From Candidatus Gastranaerophilales bacterium (GTDB lineage Bacteria; Cyanobacteriota; Vampirovibrionia; Gastranaerophilales; Gastranaerophilaceae): a stretch of DNA of 64,000 nucleotides. This document shows positions 50,572 to 62,067 of this stretch, in pieces (within the stretch, counting starts at the first letter, position 1; each line of letters opens with the position of its first letter). The stretch spans positions 62,001-126,000 of the forward strand of contig CALVED010000003.1 of the NCBI GenBank assembly GCA_944326485.1, written 5' to 3'. The notes beneath the pieces are model-generated. The model made no database searches. It was not told where the DNA came from and saw only the letters and a list, made by a program, of their open reading frames with translations. The translations under genes were made by a program, and so were the position numbers.

Positions 50572-51903
50572 ATGTCGATACAAGCAATAACAACAAAAGT
50601 AGTTTCAACATTAGGTAATAAAGAATCATTAGTACCAATAATGATAAAAGATGGAGTAGATTCATCAAGTTTAACATACAAGTCATTTAAAGAAGGTGGT
50701 CCCATTGAAGGAATGGATAGAGCAATTGATGAGTTTGGGACACAAGCAATTTGGATTGGTGGTATTCCATTTTATAAAAAATTAATAGACTTTACTGCGT
50801 ATAAAATTGGAAAAATAAATCCCCAAGTAGATCCAAGAATAATAGCGAATAAAGAATATGCAACATGGGCAAAAGAAAATGCAAAAGGGATAATGACAAA
50901 TACGGAAAGTCAGACTGTACAATCAGCAATAAAAGACTGTCTAAAAGATGGAGGCAAGCTTGCTAAAAATTTATATAAAGGCAAAATTATTGCAGCAACA
51001 GCTCTAACATTAGCCACATTTTTTCTTCTAACAAAAACAAAACAAAAAAGGACTAAAGATACAGTTCTTGATGAAATGAAATCAATAAAAGATCATGAAA
51101 TAGAGGAAAAAGAAGAAAAGAATATTTTTTCAGAATTTAACGAGTATCAATCAATGAAAAATCCTGCATTTAAAGGGATTGGGAAAAATCTTAGCGAAGC
51201 AATAATGTTTAATCCTGTACATAACATGAAAATTATAGATGCAGGAATTACCACAGAAAGGCTTGCATGTTCAAGGAATAAAACAGAATTTTTCGAACAC
51301 GCAATAAAAGAAGGTGGATTTTTATTCTTTATATATGGCTTTGGAAACTTAATAGAAAAAGGGATAAATAAAGCTGCTGATAAATTTTTCCATAAACCAA
51401 TTGATTTAAAAATTGATGTATTAATGGATAATAAACTATCTGATGCACTATTAAAGGGTAAAATAGCAAAAGACGTTGCACAATTACCTGCAAAAAATAA
51501 AACATTAACAGAAAAATTAAATTTTCTAATAAATAATCCCGATAATATATTAGTTCAAGCAGCAAAAAAGTCTAAGTTTATACAAACATTAAAAGATTCA
51601 AACGGAGTTAATGTAATAGATACATCAAAATACATTGATATGAATGAAATAGAATCATTGGCTGAACAGTTATTAAATATAGATAAAAACTTCCAATCGG
51701 CAAAAGAACCAGTTAATAAATTCTTAGCAAAAACGAAGGCACTCAAAGTAAGCTCTGTTATGGCAAATATTGGAATATCTTGTCTGGTTCTTGGTTATGT
51801 AATACCAAAACTAATATATAAATACAGAGAAATGAAAACAGGAACTACAAAATTCCACGTTGTAGAAGATATTAAGAATAAAAACAAAAAAGACATTCAA
51901 TAG
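50572..51903 (+). CDS. Unrecognised membrane-associated protein
   Basis: A 443-residue protein that matches no family known to me. Hydrophobic helices are visible at about 139-153 (IIAATALTLATFFLL), 249-264 (GFLFFIYGFGNLIEKG) and near the C-terminus (NIGISCLVLGYVIPKLIY). An acidic/Lys linker (165-190) and mixed helices lie between. Compositionally it resembles its neighbours, so transfer is not indicated. AAGGAAA precedes ATG, and a terminator follows the last codons. It could be an envelope or host-interaction protein of this lineage; function unknown. Confidence 0.7.
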   Translation: MSIQAITTKVVSTLGNKESLVPIMIKDGVDSSSLTYKSFKEGGPIEGMDRAIDEFGTQAIWIGGIPFYKKLIDFTAYKIGKINPQVDPRIIANKEYATWAKENAKGIMTNTESQTVQSAIKDCLKDGGKLAKNLYKGKIIAATALTLATFFLLTKTKQKRTKDTVLDEMKSIKDHEIEEKEEKNIFSEFNEYQSMKNPAFKGIGKNLSEAIMFNPVHNMKIIDAGITTERLACSRNKTEFFEHAIKEGGFLFFIYGFGNLIEKGINKAADKFFHKPIDLKIDVLMDNKLSDALLKGKIAKDVAQLPAKNKTLTEKLNFLINNPDNILVQAAKKSKFIQTLKDSNGVNVIDTSKYIDMNEIESLAEQLLNIDKNFQSAKEPVNKFLAKTKALKVSSVMANIGISCLVLGYVIPKLIYKYREMKTGTTKFHVVEDIKNKNKKDIQ

Positions 51904-51913
51904 AATGTCTTTT
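51888..51913 (+). terminator. Terminator upstream of the radical-SAM operon
   Basis: AAAAGACATTC and GAATGTCTTTT form an 11-bp stem with an AATA loop, overlapping the last codons of the preceding gene. It implies a separate promoter for the radical-SAM genes, possibly the TGATAAAAT extended -10 box near 51931. Confidence 0.75.
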
Positions 51914-51965: not shown

Positions 51966-52940
51966 TTGCGCTATAAGAGTTGTTATTGGATAGAATCAGG
52001 AATAAATTTTGATATAGATGCATACAAAGTATGCTGTTTATATAGTGCAAAAGGTGGCGGAAATACCATAATTGAAGACAATTATAAAGGAAAACCCATA
52101 AACTGGGAGAAAGTCTTTGAGTTTAAGAAAAATATTAAAGACATTTTCAAAAGCGGAAAAATATATCCAAAATGCGAAGGGTGCATTTTTTTAGAAGAAA
52201 AAGATTGGGATGATGATCATACAAAAATAAGTATGATAAATCTGGATTATTGGACAAAATGCAACTCAAGATGCACATACTGTCACACAATGGCAGATAA
52301 AAAAAGATATAATAGTTTTAAAAATTACAATTTTCTGCCGATTTTAAAAGACATGATAAAAAGAGATATATTAAGGCCAAATGGTCATGTTAGTTTTGGT
52401 GGCGGAGAAGTTACTTTATTAAAAGAATTTGAAAAATTGCTTAATATATTCATTGATTTTGGATTTCCACTAATTAGAATTCATTCATCTTGTATTATAT
52501 ATTCAAAAGCAATAGAAAAAGGATTAAAAGAAGGATGTGTCGATTTAATTGTTTCAGTTGATTCAGGAACAAAAGAAATGCACAGAAAAATAAAAGGGGT
52601 AGATTCATACGATAAAGTTTGGAAGAATCTTAAAAATTATGCTTCAAAACAAAAAAATAAATATGCGGTAAAAACAAAATACATAGTAATACCTGGTGAA
52701 AATGACATAAAAGAAGAAATTGATGCTTGGCTTATAAAATCAAAAGAGAATGGAATTAATTTTGTATTGCACGAAATTGAATCAAAGTGGTTTTATGCAA
52801 GAAGAGAAAATGTACCAGATGAAATTTTTGAAATATTTAATTATGCAAAAAATAAAGCAGAACAACTCGGATTAAAATATGAACTTTATGAGAGAGCAGA
52901 ACATATGATGAAATTTCATAAAGAGAAAGAGACACAATAA
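51966..52940 (+). CDS. Radical SAM protein with N-terminal SPASM-like module (1)
   Basis: A 324-residue radical SAM enzyme. The catalytic C99-x3-C103-x2-C106 (KCNSRCTYC) binds the 4Fe-4S cluster, and GGGE (145-148) binds SAM. Before it, residues 1-75 carry C6, C23, C24, C70 and C73 in a layout recalling a SPASM auxiliary-cluster domain, here N-terminal instead of C-terminal. It starts with TTG behind GAGGG; no better start exists. First of three tandem paralogues, sharing 1 bp with the next. Possible substrates are a peptide, sugar or small metabolite; unknown. Confidence 0.78.
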   Translation: MRYKSCYWIESGINFDIDAYKVCCLYSAKGGGNTIIEDNYKGKPINWEKVFEFKKNIKDIFKSGKIYPKCEGCIFLEEKDWDDDHTKISMINLDYWTKCNSRCTYCHTMADKKRYNSFKNYNFLPILKDMIKRDILRPNGHVSFGGGEVTLLKEFEKLLNIFIDFGFPLIRIHSSCIIYSKAIEKGLKEGCVDLIVSVDSGTKEMHRKIKGVDSYDKVWKNLKNYASKQKNKYAVKTKYIVIPGENDIKEEIDAWLIKSKENGINFVLHEIESKWFYARRENVPDEIFEIFNYAKNKAEQLGLKYELYERAEHMMKFHKEKETQ

Positions 52941-53923
52941 TGGGCAAATATACTAGCTGCCATTGGATATTACACGGTTTAAGTTTTGAAAATGATCACA
53001 TTGAGATGTGTTGTTTGTGTTGCCATAAGGGTGGCGGAAGATTATATATTAAAGAAAACTATAGTGGGAAAGATTTAACTTGGGATAATATATTTGATTT
53101 AAAACAAAAATTTATAAATGAAAATAAAGAAAATATTATAAATGACAAATGCGAAGGCTGTTTCAATCTTTCAAATAGAGATTGGGATGACAATGAAAAA
53201 TATATAAATTATATTCATTTTAATCATTGGACAAAATGTAATAGTGATTGCATATATTGTTACACAGCATGGGATAAAAAAAATTATCAAAAGAAACAAC
53301 ACTACAATGTTTTACCAATAATAAAAGAATTATTTAAGAAAAAATTATTTAAACCCGGCGGAGAAATAACTTTCGCAGGAGGAGAGCCTACTATACTTGA
53401 AGAATTTGATGATTTAATTAAATTACTATTAAAAAATGGAGCTGATAGAATAACAGTTCACTCATCAGGTATTAAATTTTCTAAAGCAATTGAAAAAGGA
53501 ATAAAAGAGCAAAAGTTGCACGTATGTCTTTCTGCTGATTCCGGTACAAGGGAAATGTACAAAATAATAAAGAGAGTTGACTGTTTTGACAAGTTCTGGA
53601 AAAACGTAAAAAAATATGCAAATGCCCAAGTTGACAATGCAAAGAACTTTGTTGAAACTAAATATATATTAATACCTGATGTAAATACAAATAAAGAAGA
53701 AATAGATAAATGGTTAGAACTAAATATTAAAAATGGAGTAAAATCAATTGTAATAGATATAGAAAATGAATTTTGCAAAAAATTAAGAGAAAAAAATGTA
53801 GAAACTCCTACATATTTAATTGATATTTGCAAATATATAATTGAAAAATCAAAAGAATATAACCTAAATTTAATAGACTATAATAATTTCAGATACTTAA
53901 CAACAGAATACAAATTAATATAA
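52940..53923 (+). CDS. Radical SAM protein with N-terminal SPASM-like module (2)
   Basis: A 327-residue paralogue. Radical SAM cysteines C100-x3-C104-x2-C107 (KCNSDCIYC), then FAGGEPT. The N-terminal module has C7, C24, C25, C27, C28, C71 and C74 (CCLCCHKGGG, CEGC), the richest cysteine set of the three. Conserved DWDD follows CEGC. It overlaps gene 1 by one base, indicating translational coupling. Substrate unknown; probably sequential or parallel to its neighbours. Confidence 0.78.
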   Translation: MGKYTSCHWILHGLSFENDHIEMCCLCCHKGGGRLYIKENYSGKDLTWDNIFDLKQKFINENKENIINDKCEGCFNLSNRDWDDNEKYINYIHFNHWTKCNSDCIYCYTAWDKKNYQKKQHYNVLPIIKELFKKKLFKPGGEITFAGGEPTILEEFDDLIKLLLKNGADRITVHSSGIKFSKAIEKGIKEQKLHVCLSADSGTREMYKIIKRVDCFDKFWKNVKKYANAQVDNAKNFVETKYILIPDVNTNKEEIDKWLELNIKNGVKSIVIDIENEFCKKLREKNVETPTYLIDICKYIIEKSKEYNLNLIDYNNFRYLTTEYKLI

Positions 53924-53933
53924 TGAGGGAAAT

Positions 53934-54929
53934 GTGGAAAAATTTGAAAGTTGCAGCTACATAGAACACGGAATGGTACTTGATTCTTGTAATACTATAA
54001 GATTTTGTAATAATTTCAATCCAAGATATGGCGGTAGACCAATAATTTATGAAAACTATCACGGTGAAAAAATTAATTGGGAAGAATTTTTCAATATAAA
54101 AAAAGAATTAAGAGAAAAATTTAGACAAAACACATGTCCTGAACTTTGTAAGGAATGTGTAAATATTGCATATAAAGAGTGGGATAATGGTGATTACATT
54201 GATTATTTATTACTAACCCCTTGGGTTCCTTGTAATTCTAATTGTATATATTGTGATGCGCCAAGAGATAAATATGTTCTAGAAAATACAAAACCATATA
54301 AAGTTTTGCCTTTAATAAAAGATATGATAAAAAATAACATATTAAAGAAAGATGGAACAATTGATTTTGCTGGTGGTGAACCTACTATATATAGTGAGTT
54401 TGAATCACTATTAAAAGAATTTATAGATAATGATTTTAAGAAAATCATCATACACACTAATGCCATTAAAAGAAGTAATTCTATAATAAAAGGGTTAAAA
54501 AAAGGAGTAATAAGAGTATTAGTATCAATAGATGCAGGTACACAAGAAACACATAAAAAAGTAAAACAAGTCAATTCTTACAAAGAAGTCTGGAAGAATT
54601 TAAAAGAATATGCAAAAAATCAACCTAAAGACGCTGATTATGTAAAAGCAAAATATATCATTGTGCCAGGATATAATGATAGCGAAGAAGAAATTTTGAT
54701 TTGGCTAAAAAAATGTAAGGAAATAGGAATAAAAAGTGTTGTTCTAAATCTAGATTTTAGATGGATTATGAATAATGTAAATAATGATTTAATTCCAATA
54801 TATAATCTAATGCAATTTACATTAAATAGTTCAAAAGAAATAGGTTTAAAATGTGAGTTGTATGGACAAATTTTTCAGGTAAAATGTGAAGTAGAACACT
54901 CCAGGGAAGAAAATATAGCTGGATTTTAA
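53934..54929 (+). CDS. Radical SAM protein with N-terminal SPASM-like module (3)
   Basis: A 331-residue paralogue starting with GTG behind GAGGG. Radical SAM cysteines C100-x3-C104-x2-C107 (PCNSNCIYC), then FAGGEPT. The N-terminal module differs: C7, C19, C25, and C68-x3-C72-x2-C75 (CPELCKEC) in place of CC and CEGC. This suggests altered auxiliary-cluster ligation or function. It follows gene 2 by 10 bp and is 1 bp from the dehydrogenase gene. Confidence 0.78.
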   Translation: MEKFESCSYIEHGMVLDSCNTIRFCNNFNPRYGGRPIIYENYHGEKINWEEFFNIKKELREKFRQNTCPELCKECVNIAYKEWDNGDYIDYLLLTPWVPCNSNCIYCDAPRDKYVLENTKPYKVLPLIKDMIKNNILKKDGTIDFAGGEPTIYSEFESLLKEFIDNDFKKIIIHTNAIKRSNSIIKGLKKGVIRVLVSIDAGTQETHKKVKQVNSYKEVWKNLKEYAKNQPKDADYVKAKYIIVPGYNDSEEEILIWLKKCKEIGIKSVVLNLDFRWIMNNVNNDLIPIYNLMQFTLNSSKEIGLKCELYGQIFQVKCEVEHSREENIAGF

Positions 54930-54930
54930 T

Positions 54931-55911
54931 ATGAGAATAATAATATTTGAAAAAAGAGATTATGAAGAAAAAATAATAACTGAATATGCAAAAAGAAAAG
55001 ATATAGAAATTATATCGACAACAGAAATTTTAAATGAAAAAAATATTGATTTATGCAAGAATGCAGATGCAATATCAATTCTTGGTTATAGTATATTAAG
55101 AAAAGATTTACTAAATAAAATTAAGAACATTGGTGTTAAATACATCTCGACAAGAACTATAGGTTATAACCATATAGATGTAAAATATGCAAAAGAAATT
55201 GGATTAAAAGTAAGTAATGTATCTTATGCTCCAAATGGAGTTGCAGATTTTACCGTAATGCTAATGCTTATAGCAATAAGAAAATATAAACCGGCAATGT
55301 GGCGTCAAAATGTAAATGATTACACTTTAAATGGTCTAATGGGAAAAGAGATGAGGCATTTAACTGTTGGAATTTTAGGTACCGGTAGAATTGGATCAAC
55401 TGTAATTAAAAATTTGTCAGGATTTGGTTGTAAAATACTTGCATTTGATAATTATCAAAATGATAATATAAAAAATATAGTGCAATATACCAGTTTTGAA
55501 GAATTACTTAATGAATCTGATATTATTTCAATCCATATGCCACTTACAGAAGAAAATAAAGAAATAATAAATAAACAAAATATATCAAAAATGAAAGACG
55601 GCATAATTTTAATAAATACAGCTCGAGGAGAATTAATGAATATTCCTGATATTATAGAAGGAATAGAAACAAAGAAAATAGGAGCTATTGCACTTGATGT
55701 ATTTGAAAATGAAGATACAATATATCACCATTCTTTTTCAACAGATATAATAAAAAACAGAGATATGGCATATTTAAGACAATTTCCAAACGTAATTTTA
55801 ACCCAACATATGGCTTTCTTTACAGACTCAGCAGTAGAAGAAATGATTACTAACAGCCTAAAATGCTTAATTAACTTTAATAGTAACGGAACTTGTCCAA
55901 ACGAATTATAA
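54931..55911 (+). CDS. D-2-hydroxyacid dehydrogenase (D-lactate dehydrogenase/VanH type)
   Basis: A 326-residue NAD-dependent dehydrogenase. The fold has GILGTGRIGSTVI (GxGxxG), catalytic Arg in NTARGEL, Glu in DVFENED, and His in LTQHMAFFTDSAVEEM. RTIGYNHIDVKYAKEIG and SYAPNGVADFTV match the D-lactate dehydrogenase/VanH branch, which reduces pyruvate or other 2-keto acids. One base after the third radical SAM gene, so it is the fourth gene of that operon. It may supply or reduce the 2-hydroxy acid made or used by that operon, or simply be fermentative. Confidence 0.85.
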   Translation: MRIIIFEKRDYEEKIITEYAKRKDIEIISTTEILNEKNIDLCKNADAISILGYSILRKDLLNKIKNIGVKYISTRTIGYNHIDVKYAKEIGLKVSNVSYAPNGVADFTVMLMLIAIRKYKPAMWRQNVNDYTLNGLMGKEMRHLTVGILGTGRIGSTVIKNLSGFGCKILAFDNYQNDNIKNIVQYTSFEELLNESDIISIHMPLTEENKEIINKQNISKMKDGIILINTARGELMNIPDIIEGIETKKIGAIALDVFENEDTIYHHSFSTDIIKNRDMAYLRQFPNVILTQHMAFFTDSAVEEMITNSLKCLINFNSNGTCPNEL

Positions 55912-55912
55912 C

Positions 55913-56791
55913 TTACAAACTCAATTTATCTGCTAATGCAGGAGCAATAATGTTCCATACTTCTTCAGTCGGATGCGGATCTGTTGAAGATAATTGGTAC
56001 CTTGAATTAAAGAAATTAATTCCAGTAATTTCTTGTGTTTGTAAAATAATAAAACCATTTTTTTCTAATTTAGATAAGTCGAGCCCAAAATTATTTTTAT
56101 CTCCAAATATTAATATTACAAATTTAATATTAGGATACTGTTTTTTTATTTCCTTATTCATTTGTAAAAAATATGCATTAACATATCTATTATGCCTTTT
56201 ATAGTCTTTGTATAAGAGATTATTAAAAATAAGATTATTAAAGAAATAAAAAGTATAGAACTGCCTATAGAATGGAAAATAATCATATTTTAAGGTAAGA
56301 TTGTCATATTTATCAATTTTATATATAGGGTAACCAACAAAATCTCCCATACAAACATTGGTATATAGCCTTCTAATATGATCACTCATCATAACATAAA
56401 TAACATATTGCGGATTTTTTATAGAATTATCATAAATTTTATTTTGTAATATAAAAAGAGCATTTTGCAAACCTTTCCCTTGAACAGCATAATTATATAC
56501 AGGAACATTTGCATATTGAGATAACTTAAAGCCTAAAGTTTGTTCATCTTTTAAAGCCCAACCGTATGCAAAAGAACAACCTAAAATTATAATTGGCTGC
56601 TTTGTACTATTAAGACCTGAAGGTTTTCTAAACCTTTCAGGTCTTAATAAATTAATATATGGAAGTTTTCCAATATGATATTTATCGTTAGGGGCTTTTC
56701 TTTTATTATCAATAACTAAAAAAACTTCAAATACACATAATAATAAAAATAATATTAAAATATTAAAAAATATTATTTTTAATACACGCAT
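55913..56791 (-). CDS. SGNH-hydrolase-like membrane protein
   Basis: A 292-residue protein with one N-terminal membrane helix (about 6-27). A nucleophile elbow, GCSFAYG (Ser73), and a terminal D271-x-H273 pair (STDPHPTEEVWN) fit the SGNH/GDSL hydrolase triad. The substrate is unknown; such membrane-anchored enzymes often trim acyl groups from surface glycans. It ends 1 bp from the convergent dehydrogenase gene and is 3 bp from the Bax-inhibitor-like gene on the same strand. Confidence 0.7.
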   Translation of the reverse strand: MRVLKIIFFNILILFLLLCVFEVFLVIDNKRKAPNDKYHIGKLPYINLLRPERFRKPSGLNSTKQPIIILGCSFAYGWALKDEQTLGFKLSQYANVPVYNYAVQGKGLQNALFILQNKIYDNSIKNPQYVIYVMMSDHIRRLYTNVCMGDFVGYPIYKIDKYDNLTLKYDYFPFYRQFYTFYFFNNLIFNNLLYKDYKRHNRYVNAYFLQMNKEIKKQYPNIKFVILIFGDKNNFGLDLSKLEKNGFIILQTQEITGINFFNSRYQLSSTDPHPTEEVWNIIAPALADKLSL

Positions 56792-61442: not shown

Positions 61443-62067
61443 CTAAATATCTTTTACTTTCAAAAATAACAGGAAGACCTCTAATTACACACATAGCAAC
61501 AGTAATATAAACTAATACATTTGCAGTTTTAATTAAGTATGGTTGAATACTACTATAAAGAACAAATTGGTCTACAGTCATACAATCATAAAATTCTAGA
61601 TTTGGTATATAAGCAATAATTAGCATTAAAAATACTAAAGTCTTTGCAACACCATATATCGCTCTTGAAAATCTTGATGCTGTTAAGAAGTGACAAAATT
61701 TATTCTTCATCATTGAAGATTCTCCAAAAGCAGTATATCCCTTAGAAAGAGCTATACTTCTCAACCCATCTGTAATAATACCACGAGTAACAACAACCAT
61801 AGGAACCCAAACTCCAACAGTACCTATTACAGCAAAAGCAATCCAATATAAATTTTCAACAACTCTGTCTCCTAAAATATCAAAAACAGAACCAAACTTA
61901 GATTGCTCATTTAACTTTCTTGCAACATAACCATCTAAACCATCTAAAACAATAACAAATAAAGTTAAAAATATAGCAGTAATACTTAAAGCAGGACTGC
62001 CCGTAAAAAGAAACTCGATTGCAATTACAGCAAGAATCATTCTTAATATTGTTAACAAATTAGCCAT
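61432..62067 (-). CDS. CDP-alcohol phosphatidyltransferase
   Basis: A 211-residue membrane enzyme of the CDP-alcohol family with about six helices. The full catalytic motif D-G-x2-A-R-x8-G-x3-D-x3-D lies in LDGLDGYVARKL followed by GSVFDILGD. PgsA (phosphatidylglycerophosphate synthase) is the likeliest identity from N-terminal NLLTILRMILA and length, but the alcohol substrate is not set by the motif. Inner-membrane phospholipid synthesis. Confidence 0.85.
   Translation of the reverse strand: MANLLTILRMILAVIAIEFLFTGSPALSITAIFLTLFVIVLDGLDGYVARKLNEQSKFGSVFDILGDRVVENLYWIAFAVIGTVGVWVPMVVVTRGIITDGLRSIALSKGYTAFGESSMMKNKFCHFLTASRFSRAIYGVAKTLVFLMLIIAYIPNLEFYDCMTVDQFVLYSSIQPYLIKTANVLVYITVAMCVIRGLPVIFESKRYLDED

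Follow-up and report, generated by a model that had tools for sequence, protein, structure and literature searches.

Three adjacent genes of an uncultured gut bacterium encode members of a radical S-adenosylmethionine (SAM) enzyme family which is restricted to one genus and greatly expanded within it. The genes, here called W1, W2 and W3, lie in a 64,000-nucleotide stretch of DNA (the window; positions 62,001 to 126,000 of contig CALVED010000003.1) of a Candidatus Gastranaerophilales bacterium, a non-photosynthetic relative of the cyanobacteria. We propose, with a probability of roughly 0.45, that W1-W3 are Twitch-type radical SAM enzymes which modify cell-surface sugars or glycans, a substrate deduced from the gene context of their relatives. 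The type of chemistry is known; unusual are the N-terminal position of a cysteine module, the size of the expansion and its tight restriction to the genus, and no description of the family was found in the literature under the terms searched. In the following, G000 is the window's own genome (1.90 Mb, 15 contigs, 97% complete), other G-numbers are other genomes, L-numbers are loci, and C1, C3, C7 and C9 are contigs of the own genome. The genes and their modules are:

51966..52940, +, W1, radical SAM protein, 324 aa, TTG start; module cysteines C6/C23/C70/C73, CX3CX2C = C99/C103/C106
52940..53923, +, W2, radical SAM paralogue, 327 aa
53934..54929, +, W3, radical SAM paralogue, 331 aa, GTG start; second Cys of the CC pair missing, four core module Cys present
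51966..52238, +, predicted N-terminal Twitch/SPASM-like module of W1, residues 1-91
52943..53215, +, N-terminal module of W2, placed by module alignment
53937..54209, +, N-terminal module of W3, placed by module alignment

W1-W3 are radical SAM paralogues

The three genes are followed on the same strand by a fourth open reading frame; W1 and W2 overlap by 1 bp and the next two gaps measure 10 bp and 1 bp, exactly as described in an earlier note that had been made from the sequence alone. The CX3CX2C and GGE motifs which that note had read in each protein are present as well: the cluster motif reads CNSxCxYC, and GGE occurs as GGGEVT in W1 and as AGGEPT in W2 and W3. All three proteins matched Pfam Radical_SAM (PF04055) with 63.6-77.5 bits against a cut-off of 29.5 (E 3e-17 to 2e-21). 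Identity to W1 was 42% for W2 and 40% for W3. None of the NCBIfam radical SAM models (MoaA, viperin, PFL-AE, NrdG2, BlsE, others) was reached by W1-W3 at its curated cut-off, and their first ~90 residues matched no Pfam family. This is the region of the cysteine module, which precedes the barrel as had been claimed and has the layout C6-x16-C23(C24)-x45/46-C70-x2-C73 in W1.

The family is confined to one genus and expanded there

A search of the own genome with W1 gave 41 matches. The stretches around these matches were read and a profile was built from the clear members; 37 own-genome proteins scored above 270 bits with this profile and the next protein fell to 60 bits. A family gene thus occurs every ~51 kb on average in the own genome. 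Searches with W2 found the family in 32 of the 35 same-genus genomes sampled, with 5 to at least 38 matches each; G008, G019 and G033 are without it. Of the 35, 30 had a W2 orthologue at an identity of at least 67%; none of 23 genomes of other genera gave a match at E 1e-20. Across the class, 240 genomes were searched with the profile; outside the genus, 13 genomes held distant relatives, one or two in each. Named relatives are Candidatus Gastranaerophilales metagenome-assembled genomes from the guts of rabbit, ruminant and other animals, and no family relatives turned up in the viral contigs, phages and plasmids searched. The own genome has at least 70 Radical_SAM matches in total; other families of the order have 16-45, and two congeners without the triad family have 18-19. 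The earlier note, borne out in part, had overlooked this ~37-copy expansion, as well as the non-local origin of the triad and the glycan links of its distant relatives, which are described below. Two own-genome members of ~465 aa (C1:163401-164801 and C1:164855-166249) seem to consist of one whole enzyme and, after it, part of a second barrel.

A probable Twitch-like module precedes the barrel

All 86 family proteins compared have the four module cysteines C6, C23, C70 and C73 (W1 numbering; C-x16-C-x46-C-x2-C), and 85 of them retain the radical SAM cysteines of CX3CX2C. The exception is L108:5019-5966, which has kept all four N-terminal cysteines and may be degenerate or non-catalytic since its radical SAM cysteines are lost. 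Among the 37 own-genome paralogues, C6, C23 and C73 were found in all, C70 in 36 and the second cysteine of the CC pair in 28. Since all these paralogues have it, the pattern does not arise by chance. The earlier note had reported that the three modules carry different cysteine sets; this is true of the extra cysteines, for example the second one of the CC pair that is absent in W3, but not of the four invariant ones, and therefore the core ligand set is common and only the extra cysteines differ.

The AF2 model of W1 was confident (mean pLDDT 94.4, pTM 0.92) and matched mostly radical SAM structures, with Z up to 16.2; the partial TIM-barrel fold was present. Modelled alone, the module reached a pLDDT of 91.9; its elements run strand, Cys, short helix, hairpin, Cys, strand, long helix, CxxC. 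The SPASM/Twitch enzymes of the SkfB, SuiB, anSME and BtrN type have the same CX3CX2C barrel and a module of the order C-hairpin-C, helix, CxxC, compatible with one auxiliary 4Fe-4S cluster, but the module of the triad is N-terminal instead of C-terminal and does not have the length of a full SPASM. A precedent for an N-terminal twitch exists in the NCBIfam model NF033640 (N_Twi_rSAM), which we take to describe radical SAM proteins whose twitch module comes before the barrel. No protein of the own genome reached the cut-off of this model, 170 bits (best 52.7 bits); W3 scored 30 bits over the barrel portion only, with the module unmatched.

Pfam SPASM (PF13186) was searched for in 59 N-terminal modules and found in none at E up to 1. 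The own genome has a second radical SAM family, with Pfam SPASM at the N-terminus of all seven members; it is located at C1:206668-231238 and C3:27569-28603, mostly within the glycan island described below, and is separate from the triad family (profile-to-sequence scores of 2 to 47 bits). When the full-length profiles of both families were compared by hhalign, they were collinear from the first module cysteine (98.2%, E 3e-14), with low per-residue confidence in the module, and the module alone gave no significant alignment to the N-terminal-SPASM family. On the strength of the collinear full-length match, the N-terminal module is likely to be Twitch-like, and it would bind one putative auxiliary 4Fe-4S cluster. 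Of the SPASM-like auxiliary module proposed in the earlier note, the N-terminal position, the collinearity with N-terminal-SPASM proteins and the strand-hairpin-helix-CxxC order stand, but the direct tests came out negative or were insensitive, and they gave no Pfam SPASM match.

The triad is conserved and was not formed by local duplication

To see how constant the arrangement is, 33 orthologous triad loci, chosen by similarity to W1, were compared. W2 followed W1 in all 32 informative loci, and W3 was then present in 30. Most loci have rplI and a gene for a 443-aa protein upstream and BaxI or enolase downstream; in two (L072 and L082) the triad has been relocated elsewhere. Compared with the closest relative, L053, dN/dS was 0.03 for W1 and 0.03-0.04 for all three triad genes, against 0.04 for rplI and 0.03 for map. 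The triad keeps its synteny, and its genes evolve under strong purifying selection.

In the tree, the family of the genus was split from the outgroup members with an SH-aLRT of 96. The neighbours of W1 were singletons on contigs C7 and C9, that of W2 was a paralogue fused to MatE and that of W3 a member from the island, some forks being modestly supported. Since W1, W2 and W3 sit in different sub-branches, an origin by local tandem duplication was rejected; because of this separate placement we see them as old, distinct lineages that have been brought together and not as recent duplicates. The best reading is that they are three non-redundant family members.

Relatives of the triad point to cell-surface glycans

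The case for surface sugars comes from fusions and polysaccharide loci of the outgroup, from an island in the own genome, from a gene replacement and from a transporter fusion. The outgroup relatives, too, have the cysteine module at the N-terminus (alignments start at profile position 1-12). One of them (L132:6268-8382, -, 705 aa) is fused to a GT2 glycosyltransferase, and another (L129:5571-7466, -, 632 aa) is fused to hexapeptide-transferase repeats and overlaps a PGA_cap gene; the latter protein has an additional N-terminal domain of ~120 aa for which no convincing Pfam match was obtained. Five of ten outgroup loci are polysaccharide loci, with genes for GT2, polysaccharide pyruvyl transferase, NeuB, UDP-galactopyranose mutase, GDP-mannose-dehydratase-like and thiamine pyrophosphate enzymes. 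In the own genome, 16 of the 37 members lie in a 45-kb island (C1:198-243k) together with genes for a GDP-mannose dehydratase, a DegT aminotransferase and two GT2 glycosyltransferases. At L083:7994-9049, a GT2 glycosyltransferase gene occupies the place of W3, 11 bp past W2. Finally, a radical SAM domain is fused to a MatE transporter in a 764-aa protein (C1:267749-270043, equal to L013:7749-10043, -) encoded directly after another family member, and such frames of ~760 aa are kept in several congeners. Polytopic membrane proteins of ~500 aa recur beside members as well (L125:3799-5328, L128:6778-8304, L020:12959-14461 and L012:5327-6772); they gave no informative Pfam family and could be GT-C-like or transport proteins.

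If W1-W3 act in this way, the 4Fe-4S cluster held by CX3CX2C would cleave SAM to the 5'-deoxyadenosyl radical, a step that is established for radical SAM enzymes, and the radical would abstract hydrogen from a C-H bond of a nucleotide-, lipid- or polymer-linked sugar unit. The putative N-terminal cluster (C6, C23, C70, C73), adjoining the substrate, would accept or relay an electron, a role drawn from Twitch enzymes such as BtrN. Dehydrogenation, epimerisation or deoxygenation would be the outcome. Cluster binding, sugar substrate and reaction type of W1-W3 are all deduced. The sugar and nucleoside enzymes DesII and BlsE resemble W1 in the barrel fold (Z 13.5-14.6, root mean square deviation 3.7-6.2 Å over 216-245 residues) and, through the outgroup relatives, in glycan context; their domain layout is unlike that of W1-W3, and the NCBIfam model of BlsE gave 22-28 bits against a cut-off of 400.

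Several observations weigh against a role on surface sugars. The triad family contains no characterised enzyme, and its structural neighbours include both peptide enzymes (SkfB, SuiB) and enzymes that act on sugars or nucleosides (DesII, BlsE). The isolated module, although confidently folded as a model, matched nothing in a fold search of the PDB. Four of the ten outgroup loci have no neighbour or fusion that marks a glycan function, and in the own genome roughly one member in two, W1-W3 among them, is surrounded by housekeeping genes and has no neighbour linked to glycans. The MatE fusion might just as well serve the export of small molecules.

Few other enzymes can carry out the reactions of radical SAM enzymes, and ~37 genes of one family with an N-terminal auxiliary-cluster-like module in one small genome point to unrecognised radical chemistry in the gut bacteria of animals such as ruminants and rabbits, with surface glycans as the probable target. 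The family offers concrete targets for enzymology that are rich in orthologues. A speculative extension, which we regard as improbable, is that one Gastranaerophilales genus has built a combinatorial toolkit of up to ~37 N-terminal-Twitch radical SAM enzymes in a genome of 2 Mb, each dedicated to a different C-H edit on surface sugars, with W1-W3 as the conserved core.

Alternative functions

Among the alternatives, the one that survives best, though we consider it unlikely, is that W1-W3 modify peptides or proteins as SPASM/Twitch-type maturases, either of ribosomally synthesised and post-translationally modified peptides (RiPPs) or of proteins, each paralogue introducing a crosslink, an epimer or an oxidised residue into its own protein target. 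Most characterised SPASM enzymes act on peptides, and SuiB and SkfB were the top matches of the W1 barrel by Z. Furthermore, ~21 members lie outside the main glycan-rich island, and an isolated gene under strong constraint might act on a single, unchanging protein target. However, the 1-bp overlap and the 10-bp and 1-bp gaps of the triad leave no room for a precursor-peptide gene, and the fusion partners in the outgroup are glycan enzymes. YcaO genes were considered as a link to RiPPs and rejected: the own genome has three, two of them beside members, but their occurrence is sporadic and none was found in congeners of full family size such as G006, G014, G026 and G031, which have 16 to at least 38 members.

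Somewhat more doubtful still is that W1-W3 make or tailor small molecules, such as a cofactor, a lipid or a secondary metabolite, which are then exported. The conserved radical SAM-MatE fusion beside a second family member and its closeness to W2 in the tree fit such a function, but the triad is accompanied by no other biosynthetic genes and the size of the family far exceeds the needs of one pathway. As activating enzymes for glycyl radical enzymes W1-W3 are considered refuted: the PFL-activating enzyme came first in Foldseek with the W1 barrel (2e-10), but this similarity is that of the common barrel, no NCBIfam activase model was reached, and the genome has one glycyl-radical locus against 37 paralogues.

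The adjacent dehydrogenase is an optional bystander

The open reading frame that adjoins W3 is:

54931..55911, +, D-2-hydroxyacid (D-lactate-type) dehydrogenase, 326 aa; optional, judged to lie outside the system

It matched Pfam 2-Hacid_dh_C at 1e-48 and, over its full length, the NCBIfam model of VanH (NF000492) with 308.8 bits, below the cut-off of 540 bits. The earlier note had coupled this enzyme to the triad in a common pathway for making or using a 2-hydroxy acid and had proposed a survey of whether the four genes stay together. The 1-bp gap to W3 speaks for this coupling, as does the pairing at 20 of 30 informative loci. However, the triad occurs without the dehydrogenase at the other ten, including the closest relative L053, where a second copy of the downstream gene for a 292-aa protein has taken its place. 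Conversely, two family-less congeners have the dehydrogenase but no triad: G033 has the order rplI, 443-aa gene, dehydrogenase, that is, the same site minus the triad, and in G019 the dehydrogenase adjoins BaxI and enolase. Dehydrogenase and triad were therefore gained or lost independently at one site. Since, in addition, the D-lactate dehydrogenase/VanH-like profile speaks for an ordinary function, a common 2-hydroxy acid pathway is largely refuted by the distribution and very improbable. The dehydrogenase, a member of the VanH/D-lactate dehydrogenase family with 2-Hacid_dh domains and an inconsistent partner of the triad, is an independent gene.

Flanking genes

Upstream of W1, one further feature was recorded:

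51888..51913, +, terminator-like stem-loop between the upstream gene (50572-51903) and W1, from a consensus scan only

This stem-loop suggests that the triad starts a separate transcription unit. The upstream gene, kept at most triad loci, encodes the 443-aa protein, which has no Pfam match and, with paralogues, is also present in congeners that lack the triad family. As a partner of the triad it was rejected on account of the intervening hairpin and of its presence in family-less genomes. On the other side of the dehydrogenase, at 55913-56791 (-), lies the gene for the 292-aa protein; it has no Pfam match and, with a signal-anchor-like N-terminus and the motifs GCSFAYG and DPHPT, reads like an SGNH-type hydrolase or acyltransferase.

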